12,908 nucleotides of DNA from contig CALUJT010000035.1 of the NCBI GenBank assembly GCA_944321005.1, forward strand, positions 1-12,908, read 5' to 3'. Positions 1 to 12,908 of this stretch are shown here, one piece after another (position 1 is the first letter of the stretch; each line of letters opens with the position of its first letter). The position numbers and the translations under genes are program-made. The notes beneath the pieces were generated by a model. The model was not told the DNA's origin, ran no database searches, and saw nothing but the letters and a program-made list of their open reading frames with translations. Source of the stretch: an uncultured Atopobiaceae bacterium. Its GTDB lineage: Bacteria; Actinomycetota; Coriobacteriia; Coriobacteriales; Atopobiaceae.

Positions 1-299
1 GTGGGCACCGGGTCGTAGCGGTTGATCTTGATGTAGCGGCTCCAGTAGGCCCAGTGCTCCTCCAGCGTGTCGTAGGGATAGAACCCGCCGGAGTACATGT
101 CGCGAAAGCCGTAGCGCGTCTCAAAGTCCGCAAAGTGCTCGCGGAACCGCGGGCCCGAGTACGTGAGCCCGGCGGCGGTGGATAGGCCGGCGCCGGCACC
201 CACGAGCACGGCGTCGGCCGCCTCAAGCGCGGCGGCGAGCCGTTCGAGCTCCGTCGAGAAGCTCCTGGTAAATGCACTCGTCAGACGGGAGAAAAACAT
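1..299 (-). CDS. SirTM-type (class M) sirtuin, NAD-dependent protein ADP-ribosyltransferase, N-terminal part
   Basis: Only about 99 N-terminal residues are present; the gene leaves the window at base 1 with its frame open. Seen: the NAD-binding signature GAGAGLS at residues 34-40, followed by a TYSGPRF stretch and then a region containing YSGGFYPYDTLEEHWAYWSR (about residues 69-88). This looks like the class M sirtuins of Streptococcus and Staphylococcus rather than ordinary deacetylase sirtuins. In that family the enzyme uses NAD to ADP-ribosylate a partner protein, typically a lipoylated GcvH-like carrier. The ATG at 299-297 is chosen because AAGGTG lies 7 bases upstream; it makes the gene overlap the end of the macrodomain gene by 77 bases, implying coupled translation. 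The catalytic histidine and the zinc ribbon lie beyond the edge, so activity cannot be judged. Confidence 0.88.
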   Translation of the reverse strand, partial: MFFSRLTSAFTRSFSTELERLAAALEAADAVLVGAGAGLSTAAGLTYSGPRFREHFADFETRYGFRDMYSGGFYPYDTLEEHWAYWSRYIKINRYDPVP

Positions 300-1056
300 C
301 GAATATCACCTTGAGCCTGTGGTCGGTGTGCGTGAGGTGCTCGAGGACGGCGTCGAGGGCGATGCGTGTCGCCTCCTCCTGAGGAAAGCCGAAGATGCCC
401 GTTGAGATGCAGCAGAACGCGAGCGTCTTGAGCCCGCGACGCGTTGCCTCCGCAAGGCACGCCCTGTAGCAGCGGGCGAGAAGCACCTCGTCTCGCGGCG
501 TTGGCCGGCTGTCCCGCACGATGGGCCCCACCGTGTGAAAGACCAGGCCGCTCGGGAGGTTGTGCGCGGGCGTGGCCTTGACCTGGCCCGTGGGCTCCTC
601 GTGGCCCTGCGCCTCCATGAGGCGCGCGCAGTCGAGGCGCAGCTGCATGCCGGCATAGGTGTGGATCGCGTTGTCGATGCAGTGGTGGCCGGGCACGAAG
701 CAGCCGAGCATCTGGCTGTTGGCGGCGTTCACGATGGCGTCCGCGGCAAGGAGCGTGATGTCCCCGCGCCAGAGCGCCACGCGGGAGAGTGCGGGGTCGG
801 CGGCGTCCACGGGCGGGAGGGCCGCTGCGTCAACGGCCCCGCCCCGCTCCCGCAGGCGCTCGGCGAGGTAGGCGTCCTGCACGGCCAGCGCCTCGGGCGC
901 CACGGGCGCGGGCGGACGGACGTTCATGAGGGCTCGCAGGAGGGCCCGCTGGTCGCTGGCGCTCCTCGGCACCGCGATCTTCTCGCCGTCCGCGCGCTCT
1001 GCCAGCAGCGCCTGGATTAGGTACCGCCTGCGCTCGTCCTGGGTCATAAACGTCAC
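223..1056 (-). CDS. Zinc-dependent macrodomain protein ADP-ribosyl hydrolase
   Basis: Predicted to remove ADP-ribose from proteins and so reverse its SirTM neighbour. Residues 1-85 form an N-terminal helical extension. The macrodomain follows, with WRGDIT (96-101), the ADP-ribose-binding IVNAANS (108-114), the zinc-macrodomain signature LGCFVPGHHCIDNAIH (117-132; likely ligands C119, H124, C126), HTVGP (174-178) and the phosphate loop STGIFGFP (218-225). About 277 residues fits the SirTM-linked macrodomain family, which is longer than plain MacroD proteins. The start could be the GTG at 1056, with AGAAGG 4 bases upstream, or the ATG at 1047, with GGGTGA 5 bases upstream. It begins 20 bases after the SDR gene and overlaps the sirtuin gene, so all three are probably one transcript. 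Confidence 0.93.
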   Translation of the reverse strand: MTFMTQDERRRYLIQALLAERADGEKIAVPRSASDQRALLRALMNVRPPAPVAPEALAVQDAYLAERLRERGGAVDAAALPPVDAADPALSRVALWRGDITLLAADAIVNAANSQMLGCFVPGHHCIDNAIHTYAGMQLRLDCARLMEAQGHEEPTGQVKATPAHNLPSGLVFHTVGPIVRDSRPTPRDEVLLARCYRACLAEATRRGLKTLAFCCISTGIFGFPQEEATRIALDAVLEHLTHTDHRLKVIFDVFLPSDECIYQELLDGARTARRRA

Positions 1057-1076
1057 CCGCCCTTCTTGCCGCGTGC

Positions 1077-1721
1077 TTACTTGCTCACCACAGAGACGCG
1101 CTCGCGCACGTGCTCGCCGCTCTCGATGAGGTCCACGACGGCGATGGCGTAGTCCGCGTAGCTCACCGTGGACTCGCCGGCGGCGTTGAGCGTGAGCTCC
1201 TCGCCAGAAAGCGTGTACTCACCGGTGCGCACGCCGTCCGCCTGGAAGTCGGCGGCGGGGGAGACGTAGGTCCACGCCACGTCCGTGCGCTTGCGCAGGT
1301 TGGCGAGGGCGGCGCCGTGGGCGGCCGAGAGCGGCTTCCAGTCCTCGGGGAAGTCCGGGCCCTGGTCCACGGTGGCGGTGTACTCCGGGTTCACGAAGAG
1401 GCTGCCCGCACCGCCCACGACGACGAGGCGCGTGGGCGTGCCGGCCACGCAGTCGGCCAGGTGGACGGCCACGTTGGTGATGGCGGGGATGGTCTCGGGC
1501 GTCCAGCCGCCCGCGGCGTCCACCACGGCGTCAAAGCCGGCGAGGTCGGCCGCGGTGAGCTCGAGTGCGTCCTTCACGAGGCTCTTCTCGGCAGCGGTCT
1601 TGTTCTCGCCTCGCACGACGGCGGTGACGTCCATGCCACGGTCCAGCGCCTCCCTCACTACGAGCTGGCCCACGCGACCGTTGGCGGCGACGACGGCGAC
1701 CTTGAGGTTCTTCTGGGACAT
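1077..1721 (-). CDS. NAD(P)-binding SDR/NmrA-like oxidoreductase (YwnB type)
   Basis: A 214-residue atypical short-chain dehydrogenase with a Rossmann fold. The nucleotide-binding loop AANGRVGQLVV (about residues 12-22) is a GxxGxxG-like variant and is followed by a predicted NADP-type arginine (AVVRGENKT). A central DAVVDAAGG and a LVVVGGAG strand-loop are typical of NAD(P)H-binding proteins of the PF13460 type. The catalytic Tyr-Lys pair of classical SDRs is not evident, as in quinone-reductase or epimerase-like members. The ATG at 1721 has AAAGGA about 6 bases upstream. The frame stays open further upstream to 2057, but that extension crosses the HxlR gene and is not used. It is divergent from an HxlR regulator, a common pairing in which the regulator controls the reductase. 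Substrate unknown. Confidence 0.88.
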   Translation of the reverse strand: MSQKNLKVAVVAANGRVGQLVVREALDRGMDVTAVVRGENKTAAEKSLVKDALELTAADLAGFDAVVDAAGGWTPETIPAITNVAVHLADCVAGTPTRLVVVGGAGSLFVNPEYTATVDQGPDFPEDWKPLSAAHGAALANLRKRTDVAWTYVSPAADFQADGVRTGEYTLSGEELTLNAAGESTVSYADYAIAVVDLIESGEHVRERVSVVSK

Positions 1722-1758
1722 TGCGGTTCCTTTCTGCTTGCGTTCCTGTGGACACCGG

Positions 1759-1764
1759 TATAGT
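1759..1764 (+). promoter_or_regulatory. Possible -10 box (TATAGT) for the HxlR gene
   Basis: TATAGT differs from the sigma-70 consensus at one base and lies about 80 bases before the HxlR start. No convincing -35 is present at the right distance, so this is a weak call. Confidence 0.25.
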
Positions 1765-1807
1765 CTCGCTTTTAGTGCACAGCAGAAAGTAGGCACAATA
1801 AAGTGCG

Positions 1808-1829
1808 GTAAGTACCTCTTGGTAACTAA
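1808..1829. promoter_or_regulatory. Candidate HxlR operator dyad
   Basis: GTAAGTACC (1808-1816), four bases, then GGTAACTAA (1821-1829) form an imperfect dyad (6 of 9 positions symmetric) between the divergent SDR and HxlR genes. HxlR-family dimers bind dyads of this general kind near their own promoter. The assignment is inferred from position and symmetry only. Confidence 0.3.
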
Positions 1830-1844
1830 TGGCGGTGACCAGCA

Positions 1845-2186
1845 GTGGACGAGAAGAACCTGGCGCAGCGAGAGTGGCCGGCCTGTCCGGTGGAGACCAC
1901 GCTCGCGCTCATCGGCGACAAATGGAAGGTCCTCATCGTGCGCGAGCTCCTGGGAGGAACGCGCCGCTTCGGTGAGCTGCAGCGCGGTATCGGGCACGTC
2001 TCGCAGAAGGTGCTGACGAGCCAGCTTCGCGCCATGGAGGCGGACGGCCTCGTGCATCGGGAGGTCTTCGCCGAGGTGCCGCCGCGCGTGGAATACTCGC
2101 TCACGCCGCTGGGCCGCAGTCTCGCGCCGGTGATGGATGCGCTGCGCGCGTGGGGCGAGGGCTTCAAGTCCCGGCTGGGCGCTTAG
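1845..2186 (+). CDS. HxlR/MarR-like winged-helix transcriptional regulator
   Basis: A 113-residue HxlR-family regulator. Seen: the family opening CPVETTLALIGDKWKVLIVR with a single conserved Cys14, then FGELQRGIGHVSQKVLTSQL (recognition helix), a wing with HREVFAEVPPRVEYSLTPLG, and a C-terminal dimerisation helix. Family members with this lone cysteine (YodB, HypR and relatives in Bacillus) sense quinones, aldehydes or disulfide stress through thiol chemistry and usually control a neighbouring oxidoreductase. The GTG at 1845 is forced, because an in-frame TGA sits three codons upstream; GGTGA precedes it by about 6 bases. It is divergent from the SDR-macrodomain-sirtuin cluster, which is its likely target. 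Its stop codon abuts the convergent DUF1848 stop with no bases between. Confidence 0.93.
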   Translation: MDEKNLAQREWPACPVETTLALIGDKWKVLIVRELLGGTRRFGELQRGIGHVSQKVLTSQLRAMEADGLVHREVFAEVPPRVEYSLTPLGRSLAPVMDALRAWGEGFKSRLGA

Positions 2187-3119
2187 CTACAGCAGCGTGG
2201 GCTGCAGACGGCGCAGCGGCTTCTGCGCGCCCTGGGTCACCGTGTCCTCGGAGCGCAGGTGGCCCAGGAGCAGGGGCGACTCCGGATTGTGCTGGGTGCG
2301 GAAGTTCTCGAGCGCGCGCTTGGGGTCCTTGTTGGCGTAGCAGTAGCGGCAGCCGTTTGGGCAGGAGTCGTACGCGCCGATGTCGCGGCTCTCGATGCAG
2401 CCGCAGCCGGCGCGCTGCCCCTTGTGCTTGCGCGGCGCAAATTGGATGTCGTTGGCGGCGCCCAGGATATCGAGCGTGGTGCAGCCGCTCGGGTGGATGC
2501 CGTAGGAGCTCCAGTCACCGTTGGAGCCGCAGGTCTGGAGCCAGATGCCGTGCTCGGCGGCGATGGAGCCCATGCCACGGGCGAGCCGGTCCATGTCCTC
2601 CGGGCCGATGGGCGTGAGCTCGGGCATGTTGAACCGCAGCTTCTTGTAGAGCTCCACAAAGGAGAAGATGCAGCGGTCCACGTGGCCTGCCAGGCGGCCG
2701 CACAGGTGCTCGAACGTCTCCAGATGGCGCTCCACGGTGTAGGTGGGCGTGAGGAGCACTGGGTCGTAGCGCCAGGCGATGCGTCGCGCGCCCACGATTG
2801 TCTCGAGGTCATAGAGGGTCTCGACGGAGTCATCGATGCTGGGGACGCGCGGCTCGATGTCCTGACCGTAGGCGGTGATCGTGTAGTGGAAGTACGTGTT
2901 GAAGCGGTCCGTTATCTCGTGGAGGCGCGACAGGATGGGCGCATAGTTCTTGGAGCAGAAGATCACGACGTCAACCGCGTCCGGCGTGAGCTCGTAACGC
3001 GTCACCTTGGTGGGGAAGAGCGGGTTTCTCGCCAGCGCGTACCCCTCCTCAAAGCGCCTGAGCAGCCAGGGGGTGTACCACTGCACGGTGTCCGTGCGCG
3101 CTCCGGTGTTGAGAATCAC
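2187..3119 (-). CDS. DUF1848 family protein with C-terminal cysteine cluster
   Basis: A 310-residue protein recognised as DUF1848, whose function is not established. Seen: an N-terminal MILNTGARTDTVQWYTPW block typical of the family, a barrel-like body with IFCSKNYAPIL and FNTYFHYTITAYG, an acidic/aromatic middle, and a C-terminal cluster with Cys residues in GCGCIESRDIGAYDSCPNGC followed by RYCYAN. The CxxxCxYC-like spacing suggests an iron-sulfur cluster and recalls radical-SAM or spore-photoproduct-lyase-like proteins; that is inference. It starts with GTG at 3119, with AAGGAGG 4 bases upstream. Length is normal for the family. It is monocistronic, with its own upstream palindrome (3135-3148), and is convergent with the HxlR gene. 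Confidence 0.9.
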   Translation of the reverse strand: MILNTGARTDTVQWYTPWLLRRFEEGYALARNPLFPTKVTRYELTPDAVDVVIFCSKNYAPILSRLHEITDRFNTYFHYTITAYGQDIEPRVPSIDDSVETLYDLETIVGARRIAWRYDPVLLTPTYTVERHLETFEHLCGRLAGHVDRCIFSFVELYKKLRFNMPELTPIGPEDMDRLARGMGSIAAEHGIWLQTCGSNGDWSSYGIHPSGCTTLDILGAANDIQFAPRKHKGQRAGCGCIESRDIGAYDSCPNGCRYCYANKDPKRALENFRTQHNPESPLLLGHLRSEDTVTQGAQKPLRRLQPTLL

Positions 3120-3134
3120 GGCGCCTCCTTGATA

Positions 3135-3148
3135 GGAACATTTGTTCC
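3135..3148. promoter_or_regulatory. Palindrome resembling a Gram-positive LexA (SOS) box
   Basis: GGAACATTTGTTCC on the plus strand reads GGAACAAATGTTCC on the minus strand. It has the GAACnnnnGTTC core of Bacillus/actinobacterial LexA boxes and departs from CGAACRNRYGTTYC only at the first base in the minus reading. It lies between a putative extended -10 and the DUF1848 ribosome binding site, where a repressor would act. Regulation by LexA is inferred. Confidence 0.45.
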
Positions 3149-3155
3149 GTTAGAG

Positions 3156-3164
3156 TGTATATCA
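3156..3164 (-). promoter_or_regulatory. Possible extended -10 promoter (TGATATACA) of the DUF1848 gene
   Basis: On the minus strand TG-A-TATACA fits an extended -10 element. The palindrome at 3135-3148 would fall at the transcription start. No good -35 is seen, as is usual for extended -10 promoters. Confidence 0.35.
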
Positions 3165-3240
3165 GATTCTGCCGTGATGTGTGGATTGGGTTGCTGCGGT
3201 GTTCTTACGGCCGGGAGTTGGGGTTTACGGGGGAAGAAAG

Positions 3241-3280
3241 GGCCCCGGGCGGGGCAGTTTAGCCGCTCCCGCCCGGGGCC
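3241..3280 (-). terminator. Strong GC-rich hairpin, likely terminator of the ABC operon
   Basis: GGCCCCGGGCGGG (3241-3253) and CCCGCCCGGGGCC (3268-3280) are a perfect 13-bp stem with a 14-base loop, 6 bases after the permease stop on the minus strand. On that strand the stem is followed by CTTTCTTCCCC, a T-rich but imperfect tract. Confidence 0.7.
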
Positions 3281-3286
3281 AAAACG

Positions 3287-4012
3287 CTAGAGCTCGCGCC
3301 TTTCGTAGAGCTTGAGGGAGAGCGCCGCGGAGACGGCGAGGGCCACGGCGGAGACGGCCACGCACGCCGCCACGCCCGCCACCATGCCCGCTGGCGTCTC
3401 CAGTGCCGCGAGCAGGTCGGACAGCAGGTCCAGCCCCGGAATCCCGCCGTCGAGCATCCCGCTGTTGCCCAGCACCGCCACCGGCACCACGAACAGGAGC
3501 GCAATCGCCGTGGGCAGGATCTGCGTGGCGCGCGTCTGGCCCAGACGGAAGTAGATCGGGGTGACCACGCTTGCCACCACAGATCCTATGAGCAGGGTGA
3601 AGCTTGTCACGAAGAGCATCGGCCCCATGAGCTCCGCGTCAAAAGAGAACGCCTCGCCCACCTCGCCGCCGAGCCCCAGCGCACCCGCCACGCCCATGGC
3701 GACCAGCGCGCCCACGAGCCCCACGACCATGCCCGCGAGGCCCAGCGTCACGATGGCGCCGTAGCGGCCGAGCACCACGTCGCGCCGGGAGAGCGGCAGC
3801 GTGAGGCGGAAGAGGCCCCAGTGGTTGAGCTCGTCGTAGGCGGCCAGGCCCATTGCGCCCATCATGAAGAACATGCAGGTGAGCGTCGCCGGCATCGCGA
3901 GCGGCGTCTGCATGCCCAGGCCGATGCACAGGCTCACGATGAGCCCCAAGCCCACGAGCTGCTTCGCGTAGTCGCGGAAGATCGTCATCTCGATAAGGTA
4001 TGCGCGCTTCAT
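3287..4012 (-). CDS. ABC-2 type transporter permease (YtrA/B-linked family)
   Basis: A 241-residue integral membrane protein with about six hydrophobic segments (roughly residues 16-36, 40-58, 84-115, 130-158, 170-190 and 212-235). Between the second and third lies LPLSRRDVVLGRY, the cytoplasmic coupling-type motif common in ABC-2 permeases of small GntR-ABC cassettes. The ATG at 4012 is chosen because it overlaps the ATPase stop by one base (TAATG), a translational coupling junction; a longer in-frame extension to 4072 would lie inside the ATPase gene. It would pair with the upstream ATPase to export or sense a compound, often a cell-wall-active peptide or antibiotic in this family; the substrate is not evident. 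A strong hairpin ends the operon. Confidence 0.9.
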   Translation of the reverse strand: MKRAYLIEMTIFRDYAKQLVGLGLIVSLCIGLGMQTPLAMPATLTCMFFMMGAMGLAAYDELNHWGLFRLTLPLSRRDVVLGRYGAIVTLGLAGMVVGLVGALVAMGVAGALGLGGEVGEAFSFDAELMGPMLFVTSFTLLIGSVVASVVTPIYFRLGQTRATQILPTAIALLFVVPVAVLGNSGMLDGGIPGLDLLSDLLAALETPAGMVAGVAACVAVSAVALAVSAALSLKLYERREL

Positions 4013-4899
4013 TATCGGACACCGCCCTTCAGGGTGAGAGCCATGTAGTCGTCGATAGTCATGCGGTCGCACGGGATGTCGGGGAAGTTCTCGGCAAAGG
4101 CAAAGCGGTCGGGCACGAGCACGTCGATGCCGTATTCGTGCCGCAGGTAGCGCAGGTCGCGCTCCGGGATGATGCCGCTCGCGGCCACGCGTTCGAAGTC
4201 CGCCACGCGGCAGCGCGCGATGCCCATCTCGTCGGTGATGACGTCCTTGGGCAGGTCAAAGATGATGTGCCCGGCGTCGATGCAAACGATCCGGTCCGCG
4301 ATGCGCTCGAGGTCGCTCGTGATGTGGCTGCTCATGAGGACGGCGCGGCCCGGCTCTGCCACGAAGTCGCGCAGGCGGTCGAGCACCTCGTCGCGCGCCA
4401 TGGGGTCGAGCCCCGCCGTGGCCTCGTCCAGGATGAGCAGGCGAGCGTCGTGCGCAAACGCGCAGGCCAGGCTGAGCTTCATGCCCATGCCGCGAGAGAG
4501 CTCCTTGACGGTCTTCTTGGCGTCCAGGCCAAACTCAGCGGTCAGGTGCTCGAAGCGGCGCGCGTCCCAGGTGGCGTAGGCGCGAGCGTAGATGCGGCCC
4601 ACGTCGGCCATGCGCAGGTGCTCCGGCAGCGAGATGGCGTCAAAGACCACGCCAATCTGCTCCTTGGTTGCCGCACCGGAGGGGTGGGAGAGCTCGGCGC
4701 TCGGGGCGCCGAGCACGTACGCCTTGCCGCCGTCTACGGGGAAGAGGCCGAGAAGCGCCTTGATGGTGGTGGACTTGCCGGCTCCGTTCTGGCCGATGAA
4801 GCCCACGACCTCGCCCTCGTTTACGGTAAGGTCCACGCCCTCGAGGGAGAACCCGTCGTAGTGCTTGGTGAGGCCGCGTGCCTCGATGAGTGCGCTCAT
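4012..4899 (-). CDS. ABC transporter ATP-binding protein (YtrB/BcrA-like)
   Basis: A 295-residue ATPase subunit. Seen: Walker A GQNGAGKST (36-44), ABC signature LSRGM (134-138, a variant of LSGGQ), Walker B and D-loop LLILDEATAGLD (154-165), and H-loop SSH (190-192). The segment before the signature has IGVVFDAISLPEHL instead of a canonical Q-loop glutamine, as often seen in BcrA/YtrB-type exporters. The roughly 80-residue C-terminal part after the H-loop is of the kind found in drug- or bacitracin-type exporters. The ATG at 4899 has AAAGGA about 9 bases upstream. It lies 36 bases after the GntR gene and overlaps the permease start by one base, so it belongs to a three-gene operon. Confidence 0.95.
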   Translation of the reverse strand: MSALIEARGLTKHYDGFSLEGVDLTVNEGEVVGFIGQNGAGKSTTIKALLGLFPVDGGKAYVLGAPSAELSHPSGAATKEQIGVVFDAISLPEHLRMADVGRIYARAYATWDARRFEHLTAEFGLDAKKTVKELSRGMGMKLSLACAFAHDARLLILDEATAGLDPMARDEVLDRLRDFVAEPGRAVLMSSHITSDLERIADRIVCIDAGHIIFDLPKDVITDEMGIARCRVADFERVAASGIIPERDLRYLRHEYGIDVLVPDRFAFAENFPDIPCDRMTIDDYMALTLKGGVR

Positions 4900-4935
4900 G
4901 GTGACGTCCTTTCCGCGCGAGGTCCTTCTCGCACG

Positions 4936-5304
4936 CTATTCCAGTACCAGGGCGAGCATCTCGGAGAGCTCGTCGTTCGTGAGGCCCATCGCGCGGCCGC
5001 GCTCGACCGCCTTGGCGAGAAGCCCCTCGACCTCGCGCAGCTGCTCCTCGCGGATGAGCTCGGCGTTGCCGCCGGCAACGAAGCTGCCCTTGCCCTGCAC
5101 GGTCTCTATGAGGCCGGTCGCCTCCAGGTCCGCGTACGCGCGCTTGGTGGTGATGGCGCTCACGCGCAGGCTGTTGGCGAGGGCCCGGATGCTGGGGAGC
5201 TGCTCGCCCTCCTTGAGCTGGCCCGTTACGATCGCGGTCTTGATCTGGTCCGTGATCTGCTCGTAGATGGGCTTGCTGCTCGAGTTGGAGATGATGATGT
5301 CCAA
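4936..5304 (-). CDS. GntR family regulator, YtrA subfamily
   Basis: A 122-residue regulator. The winged helix spans about residues 11-78, with PIYEQITDQIKTAIVTGQL, then LPSIRALANSLRVS, TTKRAYADLE and the wing LIETVQGKGSFVAG. A short helical C-terminal tail (about 45 residues) replaces the large effector domain of other GntR types and is the hallmark of the YtrA subfamily. The start is TTG at 5304: AAGGA sits 7 bases upstream, the protein then has family length, and the longer in-frame extension to 5508 would cross the promoter. YtrA-like proteins repress their own ABC operon and respond to cell-envelope antibiotics; here that role is inferred from gene order (regulator, ATPase, permease). Confidence 0.93.
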   Translation of the reverse strand: MDIIISNSSSKPIYEQITDQIKTAIVTGQLKEGEQLPSIRALANSLRVSAITTKRAYADLEATGLIETVQGKGSFVAGGNAELIREEQLREVEGLLAKAVERGRAMGLTNDELSEMLALVLE

Positions 5305-5440
5305 GTTCCGATCCTTCCTTCCCGCCCCTCGGGCGTCCCCTTGGGGGTTTGCCGCTCCGGGGCGTCCCCCTCGGCGGCCGGGGAGCTGCGGACGTCTTCG
5401 CGCCTCCCCTCCGGATATACCGTGTATACCCGATAAGTAC
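5305..5440 (-). other. Structured GC-rich 5' leader of the gntR-ABC operon
   Basis: About 125 bases separate the likely transcription start from the TTG codon. On the minus strand there are several short GC stems, among them CCCC-AA-GGGG and CGCCC-GAG-GGGCG, the latter a few bases before the ribosome binding site. The decamer GGGCGTCCCC occurs twice on the plus strand (5331-5340 and 5360-5369). No known riboswitch was recognised. Confidence 0.3.
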
Positions 5441-5460
5441 AGTATATACTCACATATACA
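5413..5460. promoter_or_regulatory. Cluster of TATAC-type palindromes, candidate GntR (YtrA-like) operators
   Basis: Four related elements lie within 48 bases: ATATAC (5415-5420), GTGTATAC (5422-5429 region), the perfect 10-bp palindrome AGTATATACT (5441-5450) and CATATACA (5453-5460). They overlap the predicted -10 of the gntR operon and lie before the divergent esterase gene. GntR proteins bind short palindromes of GT...AC type, so auto-repression from here is plausible but inferred. Confidence 0.45.
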
Positions 5461-5468
5461 CAGTGCAA
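5441..5468 (-). promoter_or_regulatory. Predicted promoter of the gntR-ABC operon
   Basis: On the minus strand TTGCAC (5468-5463) is followed after 16 bases by TATACT (5446-5441). The -10 matches the consensus at five of six bases and the -35 at four. It falls inside the TATAC palindrome cluster, consistent with auto-repression. Confidence 0.5.
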
Positions 5469-5542
5469 GAGGGAATATGGGAAAGTTTCGGCGGTGCCTC
5501 TGCAACAATGGATACGATTTCCCTTGGTGCGAAGGAGGCCCC

Positions 5543-6130
5543 GTGATCTACGTCATCGACTCGCCGGAGCATCCGCTGCCCGTGGCCGAGGCTGCTGCTG
5601 GCCTGAGCTCGGAGATCATGTCCGTTCCGGTTGCCAACTGGGGCGATGCTCTCACGACGTGGCCCGCCCCGGCGCTCCGCCCGGGCGAGGAGGACTTCGG
5701 CGGTCGCGCGGAAGAGACGCTCGCCTCGCTCGCCGAGCTGCTGGACCAAGCACCCGGCCCCCACGCCATCTGCGGCTACTCGCTCGGTGGGCTCTTCGCG
5801 CTCTACGCGTTCGTGCGGGAGCCGCGTCTCTCCGCCTGCGCGTGCCTCTCCGGCTCGGTCTGGTACGAGGGCTGGGTCGACTGGCTGCGCGCGAACGCGC
5901 CCGATTGCGCCGGGCGCTCCGTGTTCTTCTCGGTGGGGAAGAAGGAGAAGCGCGCGGGGCTGCCGTTTCGCCATGTGGAGGAGGATCTGGCTGCCTGCGT
6001 GGACATCCTGCGGGCGTGCGGCTGCGAGGTTGCGGTGAGGCTCGGTCCCGGCAACCACATGCAGTACGTGGGGGAGCGTCTCGCCGCTGGCCTCTCGGCG
6101 CTGGACGAGGCGGTTGCGGGGCGTTCGTAG
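5543..6130 (+). CDS. Alpha/beta-hydrolase, Fes/IroE-like putative serine esterase
   Basis: A predicted cytoplasmic hydrolase of about 195 residues. Seen: an opening beta strand VIYVIDS, the nucleophile elbow CGYSLGGLFALYAF with its catalytic Ser, then LSGSVWYEGW, FFSVGKKE (strand 7 region, where the acid residue is expected) and the C-terminal GPGNHMQYVGERL with the likely catalytic His. This order matches the esterase-D/siderophore-esterase superfamily, though it is shorter than most. The GTG at 5543 is favoured because AAGGAGG lies 4 bases upstream and the domain begins there. An in-frame ATG at 5477 with a GAGGG box is an alternative, adding 22 residues that look unlike the family. It is divergent from the gntR operon with no clear functional link. 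The substrate is unknown; a role in siderophore hydrolysis is only a family-based possibility. Confidence 0.85.
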   Translation: MIYVIDSPEHPLPVAEAAAGLSSEIMSVPVANWGDALTTWPAPALRPGEEDFGGRAEETLASLAELLDQAPGPHAICGYSLGGLFALYAFVREPRLSACACLSGSVWYEGWVDWLRANAPDCAGRSVFFSVGKKEKRAGLPFRHVEEDLAACVDILRACGCEVAVRLGPGNHMQYVGERLAAGLSALDEAVAGRS

Positions 6131-6146
6131 GATGGGCGGCAATACA

Positions 6147-6191
6147 AGCACCCCGCCCGTGGAGCCAAGGGGCGCCGACGAACGGGGTGCT
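6147..6191. repeat. Inverted repeat between convergent genes, possible bidirectional terminator
   Basis: AGCACCCCG (6147-6155) pairs with CGGGGTGCT (6183-6191). Inside the 27-base loop, GGAGCC and GGCGCC can form a smaller stem. It lies between the esterase stop and the convergent DUF2798 stop. Neither strand has a T-tract after the stem, so termination is only suggested by position. Confidence 0.35.
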
Positions 6192-6229
6192 GTGTTGCTG
6201 CCAGAACTACAGTGGTGGCCGCGGGCTTG

Positions 6230-6733
6230 CTACGCGGAAGCGGGCTCGGCGAGGACGGTTCCCTCGGGGAAGGCCCGGCGGAAGAGCCAGCGGGAGACGG
6301 GACCGGCCACGAGCAGGTTCCAGGGCAGGGCCGCGACGAAGTTCCACGGGATGTTCGCGAGCCACGTGGGAAGGATCATCGCGGGGTCGCCCACGTGGGC
6401 GAACGCCTCGATCGCGCCGTAGAGGGACATGAGGAGCACCATGGGGAGGACCATCATCGTGCTGATGGCCAGCGTGATCGCAAGGCGGCTGCTCTTGCCG
6501 GGCGTCACCAGGAAGCGGAACGCGAACCACTTGGCAAACCGGCTGGCCACGAGGACGTCGAGGAGCATGGCTACGACGTAGGCGGGTGGGAAGCCGAGCC
6601 AGGCCGCGGCCAGCGTCTCCAGGCTAAAGTCCCAGCCGTGGACGCGTGCGACGTTGTAGAGGGACATCCAGAGCACCATGCAGAAGCACATGATGACGGT
6701 GAAGATGAGGCTCTCGCGCTTGTTGGTGGGCAT
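6230..6733 (-). CDS. DUF2798 family integral membrane protein
   Basis: A 167-residue membrane protein with four hydrophobic segments arranged as two similar halves: ESLIFTVIMCFCMVLWMSLY (about residues 7-26), a second around LAAAWLGFPPAYVVAMLLDVL, a third LAITLAISTMMVLPMVLLMSLY and a fourth WNFVAALPWNLLVAGPVSRW. The repeated hydrophobic-MSLY end of segments 1 and 3 shows the internal duplication typical of two-unit DUF2798 proteins. Function is not established. The start is the ATG at 6733; AAAGG is about 11 bases upstream, longer than ideal. The frame stays open to 6811 but that extension runs into the preceding terminator. It is convergent with the esterase gene. Confidence 0.87.
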   Translation of the reverse strand: MPTNKRESLIFTVIMCFCMVLWMSLYNVARVHGWDFSLETLAAAWLGFPPAYVVAMLLDVLVASRFAKWFAFRFLVTPGKSSRLAITLAISTMMVLPMVLLMSLYGAIEAFAHVGDPAMILPTWLANIPWNFVAALPWNLLVAGPVSRWLFRRAFPEGTVLAEPASA

Positions 6734-6777
6734 AGGCAGGCAAACCTTTCTCGACGGGTGCGGGCGCCGCTCGACAC

Positions 6778-6820
6778 ACAAAAAGACTGGCGTACCGATT
6801 CGCGCGGGCACGCCAGCCTG
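6778..6820 (-). terminator. Intrinsic terminator downstream of the GNAT gene
   Basis: On the minus strand CTGGCGT (6817-6811) pairs with ACGCCAG (6794-6788) around a 16-base loop. AG/CT flanks extend the stem past one mismatch, and TCTTTTTGTG follows directly. This separates the acetyltransferase from the DUF2798 gene. Confidence 0.8.
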
Positions 6821-6921
6821 GATATGCGGTCAGTTGTGAGCGGCTGTGGAGAATACCCTATCAAGTTACGTGGCCGCACGTAAGCGTTTTGTTTGTGGAG
6901 GCCGAGCCGGACTCGCGTGGG

Positions 6922-7389
6922 TCAGGAGGCCTGCTCCGGGAGCCGCATGTAGAGCAGCGGGTAGGGGCGCCCCTCCTCGTCGAGGTCCGTCCGGCGGTAG
7001 GTGGAAAAGCCCATGTGCTCGTAGAAGCCCACGGCCTGAGGATTCTGCTCGTTGACGGTGAGCTCAGCCACGCCGAGGCGGTCGATCCCGTACGTAAGGA
7101 GCTCGCGCCCGAGGCCCTGCCCGCGTGCCTCCGGATCGAGGAAGAGCATCTCCAGGCGGCCGTCCTGCACGCCCATGAAGCCCACGGCCTCACCATCCTT
7201 CTCGGCCACGACCAGCGCACCCACGCCCATGAGCGCCTGCGGGACGAACGGCTTGATCTCGGCGACCTCGGCATCAGAGAGGAACTCGTGCGTGGCGCGC
7301 ACCGAGCGCTCCCACACACGGACGAGAAGGTTGACGAGCTCCGGCATGCGCTCGGAGACGGGACATATTTCCACGCTGCTGCCTGCCAT
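6922..7389 (-). CDS. GNAT family N-acetyltransferase (YjaB-like)
   Basis: A 155-residue acetyl-CoA-dependent acetyltransferase. It resembles Escherichia coli YjaB along its length: LVRVWERSVRATHEFLSDAE near the N-terminus, a central strand VGFMGVQDGRLEMLFLDPEA, the acetyl-CoA pyrophosphate loop RGQGLGRELL (the Q/RxxGxG/A motif), then TVNEQNPQAVGFYEHMGF and a YPLLYMRL ending. The natural acceptor of this subfamily is not well defined, so the substrate is left open. The ATG at 7389 has AAAGGA 5 bases upstream. It appears monocistronic: a clear intrinsic terminator lies about 100 bases after the stop, and 155 bases separate it from TrmL upstream. Confidence 0.92.
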   Translation of the reverse strand: MAGSSVEICPVSERMPELVNLLVRVWERSVRATHEFLSDAEVAEIKPFVPQALMGVGALVVAEKDGEAVGFMGVQDGRLEMLFLDPEARGQGLGRELLTYGIDRLGVAELTVNEQNPQAVGFYEHMGFSTYRRTDLDEEGRPYPLLYMRLPEQAS

Positions 7390-7544
7390 GCGGGTCCTTT
7401 CTCTGCGCTGATGCAGGTAGATGATAGTATGTCTTGCACGGCGCGGGAAGATTATGGCTCGCTACGGAGGGTGACAGGCCATAGGGCGCCGTCAACACGC
7501 GTGCTCGTGGCATCTACGAGGGGCCTCTTTAGCTGGACGACGTC
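7390..7544. other. Intergenic region between TrmL and GNAT genes
   Basis: A 155-base gap. It should hold the GNAT promoter; a TACTAT-like -10 on the minus strand around 7420-7430 is the only candidate and lacks a clear -35. A small CTCGT/ACGAG stem is present downstream of TrmL without a T-tract. Nothing else was recognised. Confidence 0.3.
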
Positions 7545-8120
7545 TCACATTCCGCCGAACCCGGTCTGACGCAGTGCCTCGTAGAGCACGATGGCGGCGG
7601 CGTTGGAGAGGTTGAGCGCGCTGATGCGGTAGTCCTCTGGGTTCACGAAGTTGCCGCAGACGTCCTGGGCGAGGAGCGCGGCGTGGTCGATCTGCTGCCC
7701 TGGCGCGCCCCAGCTCGCTGCGTTGTCGAGCGAGACAGCGTCTGGCAGCATGGGTATGCGCTCGCAGAGGTCCGCGTGTGCCGCCAGGAGCTCCTCCGGA
7801 AGCCCCACGCTCTCGCAGCCAAAGACGAGGTAGTCACCGTCATGGTAGTGCGCCTCGGCATAGGTGCGCCGCGCCTTCTTGGTGAGGAGGTGGAGGCGGG
7901 CGTCGGGTCCGGCTGCCTCGAGGAACGCGCCCCAGTTGTCATGGACCGTGACGTCGAGACCCTCCCAGTAGCCGAGTCCCGCGCGACGCAGCGACCGCTC
8001 GTCCAGGGAGAACCCGAGTGGTCCCACGAGGTGCAGCCGCGATCCCGTGACCACGCACGTCCTCCCTATGTTTCCGGTGTTCGCCGGGATCTCCGGCGCC
8101 ACGAGTACGACGTTGAACAA
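7545..8120 (-). CDS. trmL: tRNA (cytidine/uridine-34-2'-O)-methyltransferase TrmL
   Basis: A 191-residue SPOUT-class methyltransferase that uses S-adenosylmethionine to 2'-O-methylate the wobble base (position 34) of leucine tRNAs. Seen: the N-terminal block VLVAPEIPANTGNIGRTC, LHLVGPLGFSLDER, the knot motif YLVFGCESVGLPEEL, RIPM and the C-terminal SPOUT helix LNLSNAAAIVLYEALRQ, in the usual order and at normal length. Compared with many TrmL proteins, SLNLSN reads ALNLSN. The start is TTG at 8120 with GGGAGGAG immediately upstream (GGAGG ends 4 bases before); no ATG or GTG is available upstream without entering the lipoprotein gene. It lies 50 bases after the lipoprotein stop on the same strand; co-transcription is possible but no functional tie is evident. 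Confidence 0.95.
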   Translation of the reverse strand: MFNVVLVAPEIPANTGNIGRTCVVTGSRLHLVGPLGFSLDERSLRRAGLGYWEGLDVTVHDNWGAFLEAAGPDARLHLLTKKARRTYAEAHYHDGDYLVFGCESVGLPEELLAAHADLCERIPMLPDAVSLDNAASWGAPGQQIDHAALLAQDVCGNFVNPEDYRISALNLSNAAAIVLYEALRQTGFGGM

Positions 8121-8170
8121 GTCTCCTCCCGGCAGGTCCGGCCCAGGTCTGGCTAAGGATTGGCCCTCGA

Positions 8171-9703
8171 TTAGATCTCGGCGAGGTCGTCTCCGACCTT
8201 CGCCTGATCGTCCAGCGCCACGATGACGACCTCGTGCCCGCCAAATCCTACCGACCCGATTGTCCCCTCGGTGAAGCAGGCAACGATGGCGTGGTCGGTG
8301 CGATAGATGAAGGTGCGGTCCTCGAGGAACAGGTCGTTCGTCACCTGGTCGTAGTCGACGTCCGCACCGAGGTCGCTCGGGTTCTCGGCGAGAAACGCCC
8401 GGAGGCCCGCCTTTGCCGCGAGCTTGAGCTCGCTCTCGCTCATGCCGAGGGCGTCGGTCGCCGGAATCTCCGCACCCTTGTCGAGGTCGTAGAACCTGCC
8501 GCTCACGTAGCGGGTGCCGTGCGCCCCGCCGTAGAAGGAGTAGCGGTCGAGGCGGACGCTCGCGATCGAGCCGTCTATGGAGGCGGTGGTGTCGTTGCAC
8601 CATAGGATTTGCTCGGGGGAGCCGCCGTCGTCCCCTGCCGCAGCCTCGGCGGTCATTGCCTCCTGTGCGGCGAGCCGTTCGGCAAACTCCTGCCGGAGGG
8701 TCTCGTTGAGGCGGGACAGCTGCTCGGGCACCTCCCCGTCCGACGTCTTGAACTGGGGGTAAGACCAGAGGTTCGTCTCCTCCCAGGAGCCTGCGCCCGC
8801 CTGATATGCGGAGACGGTGATCTCCCGGGAGACGTCTGACGCGGCGTAGGCGGTCTCGTCGGCGCTCTCCTCGACGCCGGTGTCGACGGCGCCCTCGAGC
8901 AGGGAGATCACGCGCTGGGCCTCGGCGACCGTCTCGGGGACGGTGTGCAGGGTGACGCCCTCGTCCGGCATGGCGGCGCCATAGCCCATGAGCGACCAGT
9001 AGTCGCTGGTCACGGGGCGTTCCATGGCGGTGCGGAAACCTTCGGCGTCGCTCGGTGCGCCGTCGACCGTGAAGACGTTGACGCTTCCGTCGAAGTTGTA
9101 TTCCTGCAGGTAGGAGAGGACTTGGACGAAGGCGCCGTCGCGCAGCGCGTACGCGCAGCCGCCGGAGCGCTCGCCAACCTCCGAGGGCCCGTATATCGTG
9201 GCAAGCACGACGGGCTCCCCGTCGAGCGTGGCGTCCTCAAAGCCGGTGAGCACGTCTTGTCCGTGTGAGAACGCGTCGGGATCGTCGAGCGCGCAGACGA
9301 GCTCGCCGTCGCGGACCGTCCAGATTTCCACCACGTAGGGGTGCATGTAGTCGGCATCGTCCGGGTTGCGGTGGCCGAGCACGAGCTCCTCGACGCCATC
9401 CCCGTCGTAATCTCTGAGGAGAACTAGGTTGAGGCCGGTGCCCGTCTGGGTCTCGTAGTCGGATTCCGCGGGGCCCTCGTAGGAGGGCTCGCCGTAGGCG
9501 GCAACGTATTCCGTGACTTTCCCCGCGTAGAGGCTGTAGGCCTCCTGCCGCGGGTCCGGCTCCGGGGTCTCCTCGGCATCGGCCGCCGGGGCCATCTCGC
9601 CCGCGGGGTCCGGTGCCATCTGTGGCGTTGTCGAGCAGCCCGCAAGGGCAATCGCCCCGACGAGAGCCATCGTTGCCAGCGATCGCGTGCGTTGACTGCG
9701 CAT
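8171..9703 (-). CDS. Secreted lipoprotein with Ca-binding-like repeat and DUF3298-like C-terminal domain
   Basis: A 510-residue predicted lipoprotein. It begins with a basic N-region (RSQRTR), a hydrophobic core and the lipobox LAGC, with Cys23 as the lipidation site. An acidic, proline-rich linker follows (about residues 27-52). The first domain (about 55-270) contains LVLLRDYDGDGVEELVLG, in which DYDGDGVEE resembles the calcium-binding loop of FG-GAP/dockerin-type repeats. The second half (about 290-510) looks like a DUF4163/DUF3298 (RsiV-like) extracellular module, with SFYGGAHGTRYVSGRFYDL and a C-terminal GFGGHEVVIVAL strand. Such modules occur in anti-sigma or cell-wall-binding proteins, but no transmembrane anti-sigma part is present here. 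The ATG at 9703 has AAGGGCGG upstream. Function not known; location is the outer face of the membrane. Confidence 0.88.
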   Translation of the reverse strand: MRSQRTRSLATMALVGAIALAGCSTTPQMAPDPAGEMAPAADAEETPEPDPRQEAYSLYAGKVTEYVAAYGEPSYEGPAESDYETQTGTGLNLVLLRDYDGDGVEELVLGHRNPDDADYMHPYVVEIWTVRDGELVCALDDPDAFSHGQDVLTGFEDATLDGEPVVLATIYGPSEVGERSGGCAYALRDGAFVQVLSYLQEYNFDGSVNVFTVDGAPSDAEGFRTAMERPVTSDYWSLMGYGAAMPDEGVTLHTVPETVAEAQRVISLLEGAVDTGVEESADETAYAASDVSREITVSAYQAGAGSWEETNLWSYPQFKTSDGEVPEQLSRLNETLRQEFAERLAAQEAMTAEAAAGDDGGSPEQILWCNDTTASIDGSIASVRLDRYSFYGGAHGTRYVSGRFYDLDKGAEIPATDALGMSESELKLAAKAGLRAFLAENPSDLGADVDYDQVTNDLFLEDRTFIYRTDHAIVACFTEGTIGSVGFGGHEVVIVALDDQAKVGDDLAEI

Positions 9704-9789
9704 GGTGAGCCGCCCTTCGGTTTTGCCCTGTCCGCACTCCCAAGTGTAGGGCCTCCGCGGCCCTGATGCGCGATGGGAGGAGAATTATG

Positions 9790-9845
9790 GCCCTACGTGC
9801 GATGTCCGGGCGACCCCGTGCGAGGTTTCGCCCTTCGTGCGATGC
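9790..9845 (+). repeat. Left arm of a perfect 56-bp inverted repeat
   Basis: From GCCCTACGTGCGATG at its outer end to CCCTTCGTGCGATGC at its inner end, this arm is the exact reverse complement of 9945-10000, with no mismatch or gap over 56 bases. It contains three spaced copies of a CGTGCGAKG motif. Confidence 0.95.
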
Positions 9846-9944
9846 AAATCTGGTGGAAAAACGACAGGCGGCGAAATAGATAGCAACGTTCTCCCATGAT
9901 TAAATATCAAATAAGAAACTGAATATTCAAATTGGTCGAAAAAG
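9846..9944. other. AT-rich 99-base core enclosed by the inverted repeat
   Basis: Base composition changes sharply from the GC-rich arms. It holds the palindrome TGAATATTCA (9920-9929). On the minus strand TTGAAT (9930-9925) and GATATT (9908-9903) are 16 bases apart, a weak promoter-like pair directed toward the lipoprotein gene. No credible coding sequence. Confidence 0.5.
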
Positions 9945-10000
9945 GCATCGCACGAAGGGCGAAACCTCGCACGGGGTCGCCCGGACATCGCACGTAGGGC
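9945..10000 (-). repeat. Right arm of the perfect 56-bp inverted repeat
   Basis: Exact reverse complement of 9790-9845. The outer boundary is sharp: after GTAGGGC the right flank reads AAAACCTCGCAG while the left flank reads CATAATTC. No short target-site duplication is visible outside the arms. Confidence 0.95.
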
Positions 10001-10012
10001 AAAACCTCGCAG
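9946..10012 (+). repeat. Two tandem 27-base units with 40-base period
   Basis: CATCGCACGAAGGGCGAAAC plus CTCGCAC (9946-9972) and CATCGCACGTAGGGCAAAAC plus CTCGCAG (9986-10012) differ at 3 of 27 positions and are separated by 13 bases. The second unit extends 12 bases beyond the inverted-repeat arm, so the arm is built from a smaller repeating unit. Confidence 0.85.
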
Positions 10013-10036
10013 CGGGAGCTTCTCCCCGTGGCCCGC

Positions 10037-10042
10037 TATACT
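10037..10042 (+). promoter_or_regulatory. Possible -10 box (TATACT) of the def-like/uvrA-like operon
   Basis: TATACT lies 45 bases before the deformylase-like start codon and matches the consensus at five of six bases. No recognisable -35 is present 16-18 bases upstream, where the sequence is GC-rich. Confidence 0.4.
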
Positions 10043-10086
10043 ATCGTGAGCAGCAAGATGGCAATACGCAGTTCGAAAGGAACCTC

Positions 10087-10506
10087 ATGATCAAGGACCT
10101 GGTGCACGACGACACCATCCTCTCCACTCCGTGCGAGCCCGCGACCGCCGAGGACGCCCCCGTGGCTCAGGACCTCGTGGACACGCTCGCCTCCATTGAC
10201 GACGCGGTCTGCCTGGCGGCCAACCAGATTGGCGTGACCAAGGCCATCATCGCCTTCCAGGACGACAAGGACGAGGTCCACGTCATGTACAACCCCAAGG
10301 TTCTCATGGGTCTGGGTGGCGCCAAGGTCGAGGAGAGCTGCCTTACGCACGAGGAGGTCTCCAAGGTCACGCGCTTCGCCAAGATCAAGGTGTCGTTCGA
10401 CGACCTCGTGGACGGACAGCTCAAGGCCCGTCGTCGCGACTACGTAGGCTGGACCGCGCAGATGATTCAGCACATGGTCGACCACTGCAAGGGCAAGCTG
10501 GTCTAG
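10087..10506 (+). CDS. def: Peptide deformylase-like protein with altered active-site motif
   Basis: A 139-residue protein of the polypeptide deformylase family, which normally removes the formyl group from the starting methionine of new proteins. The fold motifs are present: motif 1 CLAANQIG (42-49; normally GxGxAAxQ), motif 2 ESCLT (83-87; normally EGCLS) with the metal-ligand Cys85, and motif 3 QHMVDH (128-133; normally QHEXDH). Metal-ligand histidines H129 and H133 and the motif 1 glutamine Q47 are kept, but the general-base glutamate is Met130 and the motif 1 glycines are Ala/Cys. It resembles the short (about 136-residue) second deformylases of Firmicutes. It may be inactive, altered in chemistry, or a binding protein. 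The ATG has GAAAGGA about 6 bases upstream. The uvrA-like gene starts one base after its stop. Confidence 0.88.
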
Positions 10507-10507
10507 C

Positions 10508-12908
10508 ATGCCCCTCCGCGCCGAGGCCGCCCCGGACCACATAGAGATTCGGGGCGCCCGCGTCCACAATCTCAGGAACATCGACGTCGACATCCCCCTG
10601 AACGAGCTCGTGGGGGTTGCCGGCGTTTCTGGTTCGGGCAAGAGCTCGCTTGCGCTGGGCACGCTCTATGCGGAGGGCTCGCGACGCTATCTCGACGCGC
10701 TCTCCACTTATACGCGTCGCCGCATCTCGCAGACGGGGCGCGCCACCGTGGACGAGGTGCTGCACGTCCCGGCGGCGCTCGCCCTGCGCCAGCGCCCCGC
10801 GGTGCCGAGCGTCCACTCGACCTTTGGCACCTCCACCGAGCTCCTCAACTATCTGCGCCTGCTCTTCTCGCGACTGGGCAGCCACGTTTGTCCCAACGGG
10901 CATCGCGTGCCGCCCTCCATGGACGTGGCGCTCGGCCGAGCCACGCGCTGTCCGGTCTGCGGCGTGGAGTTCATGGGGCCGGGCGCGGAGGACCTGGCCT
11001 TCAACAGTGGCGGCGCGTGCGCCACCTGCGGCGGCACCGGCGTGGTGCGCACCGTCGACGAGGCCGCCCTTGTCCCGGACGAGAGCATCTCCATCGACGA
11101 CGGGGCGGTGCTTCCGTGGGGAAGCCTCATGTGGGACCTCATGAAGCAGGTGTGCGGTGCCATGGGCGTGCGCACCAACGTGCCGTTTTGCGAGCTCACG
11201 CCCGAGGAGCGCGACATCGTCTTCCATGGTCCCATGGAAAAGAAGCACATCCTCTATCGGGCCAAGAAGGGCGACGCCTTCGCCGAGATGGACTTCACCT
11301 ACTACAGCGCGGTCAACACGGTGAAAAACGCGCTCTCCAAGGCCAAGGACGAGAAGGGCCTCGCGCGCGTGGCGCGGTTCCTGCGCGAGGACATGTGCCC
11401 GGACTGCGGCGGCACACGCCTCTCGGCCGCCGCGCGCGCACCCGAGATTGACGGCATGAGCCTCGCGGACGTCGCCAACATGACGCTCGACGAGCTTGCC
11501 ACCTGGGTGCCCACGGTCCCGGGGCTCATGCCCAAGGAGATGCGGTCCATGGCGCGGACCATCTGCGCCGAGACGGAAGAGCCCATCTGCCGCCTCCGCC
11601 AGCTCGGCCTGGGCTACCTCTCGCTCGACCGTGCCAGCTCCACGCTCTCGACGGGCGAGCGTCAGCGAGTCCAGCTTGCGCGCGCCGTGCGCAACCGCAC
11701 CACGGGCGTGCTCTACGTGCTGGACGAGCCGTCGATCGGCCTTCACCCCTCCAACGTGGAGGGCCTGCTCGGCGTGGTGGACGACCTGCTGGCAGACGGC
11801 AACTCCGTCGTGCTGGTGGACCACGACGTGCGCGTGCTGCGCCACGCGGACCATCTCGTGGAGATCGGCCCCGGGTCCGGCGCCGAGGGCGGTCGCGTCA
11901 TCGCCCAGGGCAGCGTGGCGGAGGTCGAGAAGAACCCGGCGTCGCGCATCGGCCCCTTCCTCTCCGGCGCGCGGCACGTGCGCGCTCGTGCGCGGGCCGT
12001 TGAAGGGGAGGTCTTCTCGGCCGGGTCGCTGCGCCTGGAGACGGGCGCCATCCACACGGTGCGTCCGCTCGTGGTCGAGATTCCCCGCGGGCGTCTCACG
12101 GCGGTGACGGGCGTCTCCGGTTCCGGGAAGACGACGCTCGTGCTGGAGAGCCTGGTCCCCGCCCTGCGCGCCGACATCGCGGGCGAGCCGCTGCCGGCGC
12201 ACGTCCGCTCGGTCGATGCCGCGGGCCTGCGTCGCACCAACCTCATCGATGCCACGCCCATCGGCGCGAACGTTCGCTCGACGGTCGCCACCTACTCCGG
12301 CGTCCTCGACGACCTGAGGCGCGCCTACGCCAAGCTCCCGGAGTCCCGCGAGCGCGGCTACAGGGCCGGGGCGTTCTCGTACAACACCGGGTCGCTCCGC
12401 TGCCCCACCTGCGACGGCACGGGGCAGATATCGCTGGACGTGCAGTTCCTCCCCGACGTGGACATCCCCTGCCCGGACTGCGGCGGCGCGCGCTACGGGC
12501 GCGAGGCGTGGGACGTTCGCCTCGCCGGCGACGTGAGCCTGCCGGAGCTTCTCTCCTACACGGTGGACCAGGCCCGGGAGGCCCTGGCGGTGACGAGCCT
12601 GCGCTCCGCCAAGGGCAAGCTCGAGGTGCTGCACGACCTTGGGCTCGGCTACCTCACGCTGGGCGAGGCCACGCCGGCGCTCTCGGGAGGCGAGGCCCAG
12701 CGCCTCAAGCTCGCGAGCGAGCTCACGCGCGACCAGGCAGACGCCCTCTTCGTCTTTGACGAGCCCACCATCGGCCTGCACCCGCTCGACGTCGAGGTAC
12801 TTCTCGGCGTGTTGCAGCGTCTCATTGAGAACGGCGCCACCGTCGTGCTGGTCGAGCACGACCTGGACGTGGTCGCCGGCGCGGACTGGCTCGTCGGCCA
12901 GGGCCCCG
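10508..12908 (+). CDS. uvrA: UvrA-family ABC ATPase lacking the UvrB-binding insertion (class II UvrA-like), 3' truncated by the window
   Basis: About 800 residues are present; the frame is still open at the right edge and probably only a short C-terminal tail is missing. Two ABC cassettes are seen. The first has Walker [10 protein letters not shown] (about 39-47), signature [12 protein letters not shown] (a change from LSGGE) and [13 protein letters not shown]. The second has Walker [10 protein letters not shown], a perfect [12 protein letters not shown] and [12 protein letters not shown]. Cysteine pairs [27 protein letters not shown] and CPDCGG suggest zinc modules. The segment after Walker A moves directly from the LRLLFSRLG region to cysteine pairs without the roughly 130-residue UvrB-binding domain of housekeeping UvrA. 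Class II UvrAs are linked to DNA-damage tolerance and to resistance to DNA-binding drugs. The ATG follows the def-like stop by one base, so translation is probably coupled. Confidence 0.92.

Follow-up and report, generated by a model that had tools for sequence, protein, structure and literature searches.

Why do two divergent genes, one for a lipoprotein (8171-9703, minus strand) and def (10087-10506, plus strand), enclose a long inverted repeat without a single mismatch between its arms? The locus lies in contig CALUJT010000035.1 (GenBank assembly GCA_944321005.1) of an uncultured Atopobiaceae bacterium, analysed here as one stretch of 12,908 nucleotides (positions 1 to 12,908, the window). 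The repeat is one copy of a dispersed family of four-unit elements, and elements of this architecture are found directly behind genes for DUF559-like proteins, a pairing that is likely to be real. The explanation that is slightly favoured is a selfish, REPIN-like pair: the element would be its DNA partner, and a DUF559-like protein with a predicted nuclease fold would bind, cut and thereby copy the DNA.

The main description in the first-pass annotation holds: all 56 bases of one arm have their complement in the other, 99 bases separate the two arms, the core is AT-rich in GC-rich surroundings (GC 0.35 against 0.67 for the window) and the neighbouring genes are divergent. The promoter-like boxes that it placed in the core were not recovered, as a scan of this copy for the sigma-70 type gave 0 matches in 9700-10100 (shuffle mean 0.2). 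Each arm contains 27-bp units 40 bases apart, and the repeat is thus more than two arms (Table 1).

A single-copy arm, named in the first-pass annotation as the result that would speak against it, is not what the own genome (G000) displays. There the repeat has 108 partial matches, many of them paired about 150-160 bp apart, and 26 unit loci. The unit has the consensus TGCRRGGTTTGSCCCTTCGTGCGATGY, with CGTGCGATG invariant across all 90 matches, and the exact 11-mer YTCGTGCGATG occurs 89 times compared with once for its reversed control. Four unit matches are present at 19 loci (window included), three at two loci, two at three loci and one at two loci; two of the three two-unit loci are interrupted by the end of an insertion sequence and one by a contig end. 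The complete element, referred to as type A, has two direct units, a core and two inverted units, with a pitch of 40 or 41 bp between units. Solo unit matches at ten places, in or near genes, look like chance, and an even spacing of the elements along the chromosome was unconvincing by eye. A multi-copy insertion sequence with ends beginning AAACGCTTTTAAACCACTYTGGAGATGGG (L033:2172-2248, L035:2109-2185; 23 matches in G000) lies about 80 bases or less from contig ends wherever the length of the contig is known. Two of its copies occupy an identical position, the right-hand border of a tetrad core, which suggests a target preference.

Table 1. Parts of the element in the window (PWM, position weight matrix score)
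Feature	Positions	Strand	Remarks
Left arm, perfect inverted repeat	9790..9845	+	56/56 complementarity
Unit 1 (outer left)	9779..9805	+	PWM 19.3; outer 11 bases degenerate, inner 16 unit-like
Left linker, 13 bases	9806..9818	.	Within the perfect repeat; pairs with the right linker in the window copy
Unit 2 (inner left), TGCGAGGTTTCGCCCTTCGTGCGATGC	9819..9845	+	PWM 44.6
AT-rich core, 99 bases	9846..9944	+	GC 0.35; belongs to the core-length classes
Central core motif ACGTTCTCCCATGATT, 40 bases from unit 2	9886..9901	+	PWM 15.6; offset class recurs in other copies and types
Unit 3 (inner right)	9945..9971	-	PWM 44.6
Right linker, 13 bases	9972..9984	.	Within the perfect repeat
Unit 4 (outer right)	9985..10011	-	PWM 38.4
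Right arm, perfect inverted repeat	9945..10000	-	56/56 complementarity

The spacing within the elements is regular. Core length falls into two classes among the 21 cores that could be measured, 89-90 bp (nine cores) and 99-101 bp (twelve cores). A central motif, approximately RCGTTNNCSCAGKWT, is present in 23 of 24 type A cores (partial elements counted) and starts at a distance of 30, 40 or 41 bases from one inner unit. Trained on type A, the motif scores above 95% of shuffles in type B cores (11 of 15, at offsets of 28-29 or 39-40) and in type C cores (16 of 24, at offsets of 40, 41 or 51), the latter set including orthologous copies from three genomes and therefore non-independent members; only five of 15 assorted other elements exceed this level. 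Because the spacings step by about 10 bases, they are more readily explained by proteins assembled along one face of the DNA than by RNA. A transcribed long hairpin (double-stranded RNA) or another RNA-level element, one of the three options in the first-pass annotation, would account for the very stable fold of the repeat (-147.8 kcal/mol, z -17, with equal stability in 0 of 200 shuffles). It is nevertheless highly improbable considering these steps, the lack of any Rfam match in the window at gathering scores, and the linkers of other elements. A linker match of at least 80%, as in the window, was found for 7 of the 19 other type A elements tested but for none of the 15 of type B or the 13 of type C. 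Because linkers match so rarely, the perfect arms look like the result of recent homogenisation within the element and not like a requirement.

Related genomes (Thermophilibacter) contain elements of the same architecture with other unit sequences, often in the same intergenic gaps. The own genome has 69 occurrences of CTTCGTGCGATG, and none of 30 other genomes of the genus has more than two. A four-unit element was detected upstream of def in 12 of 29 oriented genomes, each with a pitch of 40/40 or 41/41 and with varied units, at a score of at least 30, where three shuffles per genome peaked at 28 and the genomes without detection reached at most 27. By eye, the def regions of three more genomes (G005, G019 and G020) seem to contain diverged elements. 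In G009, with the type B unit TGCAAAACNNGCCTTCGGGYCRGTGG, 12 of 18 fetched loci share their intergenic gap with a G000 locus, with flanks that are mostly 84-97% identical. Arms and cores at these 12 gaps look unrelated except at L049, with a related type A element beside the type B one, and L074, with one type A unit. An additional gap is shared by both genomes, and there G000 retains only a solitary type A unit (L044). The L188 locus holds type C in G004 and G023, another type in G025, and about 80 bases between the flanks in G001, G027 and G003. In type C orthologues linkers and cores have diverged more than the units, whose conservation is about that of the flanks.

Two observations concern the range and the copying of the elements. 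At different loci in G009, L063 and L068 have the left flank, units 1-2 and an inverted core in common while the right arm differs, as if gene conversion, and not clean transposition, had copied them. Inverted repeats in Slackia (L142:6162-6328) and in Atopobiaceae RGIG5869 (L144:2572-2702), with cores of 113 and 81 bp, have a weak CCAGGT/GCAGGT-like motif near the exact centre, and the superfamily may extend past the genus.

The reuse of gaps and the conservation of units raise the alternative that the elements are functional sites of the host, that is, operators or chromosome-organising sites of a fast-evolving protein with places held by selection, the DUF559-like protein being an autoregulated DNA binder that mobilises nothing. 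The helical phasing agrees with this, as does the autoregulation of AbiEi-type antitoxins via inverted repeats that is described in PMC7319586. However, elements are present or absent at orthologous loci, 17 of 29 def regions are below the detection score, each genome has several families, core sequences are unrelated at most shared loci, and the 20 flanking proteins scanned are housekeeping proteins without a common function. Host-functional sites are therefore considered unlikely.

The pairing of the elements with DUF559-like genes is seen at a locus next to a CNNM gene. Of ten genomes inspected there, nine (G000, G009, G024, G004, G003, G025, G015, G023 and G027) have an open frame of 338-395 codons that stops shortly in front of an element; G001 has neither the gene nor the element. 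The own genome has this gene (L034) just before a type A copy. An inverted repeat above the shuffle maximum was found downstream of the gene in 8 of 8 scanned genomes, narrowly so in G024, and in G003 the scan detected no repeat, yet four units are visible in the sequence. The protein is hypervariable, with 39-72% identity in an initial alignment of eight orthologues and about 82% for the pair G015 and G003, and the flank on the CNNM side is 85-97% identical to G004 at the DNA level. Unit type tracks the protein in part: G025 and G023 resemble each other in their proteins and both have C2 units, the element of G004 is of type C, and the protein that diverges most, in G027, is paired with TGCGCAATCAGGCCCTTGGTGCGAA units. 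When G004 is compared with G025, a nearly identical sequence on both sides encloses a stretch that differs, made up of the 3' part of the gene and the element. Over nine genomes protein distance correlates with unit distance (r 0.45, p 0.016, shared ancestry left in); when the alignment is divided into four blocks the correlation is strongest for columns 80-160 (r 0.51, p 0.0025) and non-significant for columns 0-80.

By its model the protein looks like a fusion of an AbiEi-type DNA-binding module with a nuclease of the homing-endonuclease/VSR kind, and in the model the fold and the catalytic-type residues of EDxHD homing endonucleases appear to be present; H249 and D258 of the L034 protein are invariant. 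Searches rendered no hits in PDB by sequence, in NCBIfam for three of the DUF559-like proteins, in PADLOC for six or among plasmids by tblastn for two; where a source names these proteins, they are labelled hypothetical, uncharacterized or DUF559.

The pairing recurs elsewhere in G025. A lax scan of 784 kb gave 65 inverted repeats against 7 in shuffles, some of them chance-like and in coding sequence, and many group into seven families with 4-10 two-strand clusters each. Five further DUF559-like genes are present in the 784 kb, of which four precede elements of type J (L272), type G (L280), type E (L290) and type I (L307, missed by the scan, with arms identified in the sequence), and one has none (L276). 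Together with the gene at the CNNM locus (C2), five of six DUF559-like genes directly precede an element, each of a different family, and five of the seven families have such a gene (C2, E, G, I and J). By threshold alone the figure is three of five genes. Of the 591 other open frames, 26 have a repeat at a distance of up to 60 bp (P 0.0008) and 44 at up to 150 bp (P 0.004); in a laxer test some downstream repeat was found for 26 of 228 background frames. The layouts of the G025 families (L272-L311) vary, with up to six units at a 41-bp pitch in H, alternating orientation in J and mostly one unit per arm in I.

Cores occur in both orientations, which brings in the promoter switch (inverton) proposed in the first-pass annotation. 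Among 13 orthologous type C comparisons the orientation is clearly kept in six, inverted with colinear flanks and linkers in three (two loci) and unclear in four. The values for the same and the reversed orientation are 0.58 and 0.87 for L172/L189, 0.64 and 0.79 for L174/L178, and 0.62 and 0.88 for L246/L249. An inversion is also seen at one locus with another unit type (G001 vs G027) and between two copies in G009, whereas that at L031/L049 is unsupported (0.66 vs 0.69). The two orientations were thus met between species or copies, not within one culture. A dedicated invertible promoter could flip its core in this way, but it is very unlikely here in view of the absent sigma-70 match in the window, the orthologues that keep their orientation, and a conserved -10-like TATAMT that by eye lies before def and outside the element. 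By rough automatic gene calls, moreover, 38 of 60 elements stand between co-directional genes, 12 between divergent and 9 between convergent ones (1 uncalled), and G025 has only two PF00589 proteins. The inversion itself stands, while the promoter function proposed with it is unsupported.

The remaining option in the first-pass annotation, a non-autonomous mobile element without a target duplication, comes nearest to the observations, with dispersed copies, presence and absence at orthologous sites and no excess of target duplications. In its ordinary form, a miniature element moved by an insertion-sequence transposase, a RAYT or a Xer-like tyrosine recombinase, it is rather improbable. The elements are short, non-coding, dispersed and intergenic inverted repeats, and RAYT-like Y1_Tnp genes are present in 4 of 4 genomes searched (L215-L225, 1-5 per genome). 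A target duplication, the mark of bacterial miniature inverted-repeat transposable elements (MITEs), showed no excess in 19 type A, 15 type B and 13 type C elements, however, and none of nine unit patterns forms a two-strand cluster in the 11 Y1_Tnp loci. The same holds for 19 PF00589 loci out of 21, where L204 has one type I match. The exception is type H, which directly follows a Xer-like gene in the other two PF00589 loci (L199 and L200, orthologous; generic unit scores 36-38). Five other families adjoin DUF559-like genes.

Several candidate partners and origins were rejected. A RAYT was dismissed as no unit pattern lies beside the Y1_Tnp genes; a 9-base C-type match in each of L218 and L225 was read as chance. 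A tyrosine recombinase for types A-C was dismissed as type A-C units occur in 0 of 21 PF00589 loci; G025 has one PF00239 gene besides its two of PF00589, and G009 one serine recombinase in a 196-aa open frame. The identical overlap of inner units that a recombinase needs is, by inspection, not general. No insertion-sequence partner and no ends in common with an autonomous transposase element were seen in the fetched loci. A phage or plasmid origin was set aside after a distant blastn search with 9700-10100 gave no match in either collection; in viral_contigs one pattern match (L169), lone and without a tetrad, was read as chance, and the type B pattern had 0 matches. The type H element (L199:2055-2285 in G004, L200 in G025), with three forward and three reverse-type units, begins right after the Xer-like stop codon; family H may have another kind of partner, or the adjacency is chance.

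The selfish pair with a DUF559-like protein builds on what is directly observed, namely the element family, its phasing, the adjacency of gene and element, one joint difference in gene part and element between close species, and the core inversions. A selfish or mobile nature of the elements is, by a small measure, the better bet. The DUF559-like protein would probably bind all four units in a complex phased with the turns of the helix, and would probably nick or cut the DNA at or near the central motif, although a cut placed at the conserved centre is a tentative element of the scheme. Repair from sister elements would then spread copies into gaps beside genes and homogenise units and arms within a genome, and template switching from arm to arm would produce perfect arms and flipped cores. 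It is conceivable, as a bolder and more doubtful proposition, that this is a new class of bacterial selfish DNA, with four-site families that each have their own AbiEi-VSR protein binding the units and breaking the centre, where repair of the break copies, homogenises and inverts, and where specificity is exchanged by a swap of the 3' part of the gene together with the element.

Some observations weigh against the selfish pair. The same intergenic gaps are reused across species, target duplications are absent in the A, B and C elements tested, and type C elements occur in genomes where the known gene is of type C2. A strict one-to-one rule is called into question by type C, for which no partner gene was seen in the 784 kb of G025, and by H, the largest family, with its member directly after a Xer-like gene in both G004 and G025.

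PMC3116915 and PMC3686654 describe for REP-RAYT several repeat classes per genome, each defined by the copy beside the enzyme gene, and species-specific sequences. Our elements resemble this in being dispersed, short and inverted, in their several classes per genome, of which in G025 five of seven have a copy beside a DUF559-like gene, and in their species-specific sequences. They differ in the partner, which according to the model is a DUF559-like nuclease-fold protein and not a tyrosine transposase, in the four units per element (types A-C) with a 40-41 bp pitch and a conserved central motif, in units that look asymmetric by eye, and in that the nine unit patterns are absent from the 11 Y1_Tnp/HUH loci. 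What sets the protein apart from the EDxHD/VSR homing endonuclease I-Bth0305I is an AbiEi-like module at its N terminus; around the gene no intron or intein is seen, and the sites are multi-copy in the same genome. Unlike the AbiEi-type antitoxin Rv2827c, the protein appears to carry a nuclease-fold domain, and the element follows the gene instead of lying in the promoter. MITEs and other small dispersed repeats are likewise short, non-coding, intergenic and inverted, but the present elements differ in their four-unit arms, in that no target duplication was found and in that the fetched loci yielded no insertion-sequence partner; invertons share the two core orientations.

The top-ranked matches in the open-licence PubMed Central literature contain nothing on such elements in this genus or on a DUF559-repeat pair, and the analysis suggests an undescribed kind of selfish DNA. 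If this is true, these DUF559-like proteins would gain a defined DNA partner and a role that experiments can address, and the elements would represent a second, enzymatically unrelated route to the lifestyle of REP-RAYT. Gene, site and site type can all be read from the sequence across many species, so the evolution of protein-DNA specificity would be directly testable, and the pairing could account for a large share of the inverted repeats that stand as orphans in the genomes studied.
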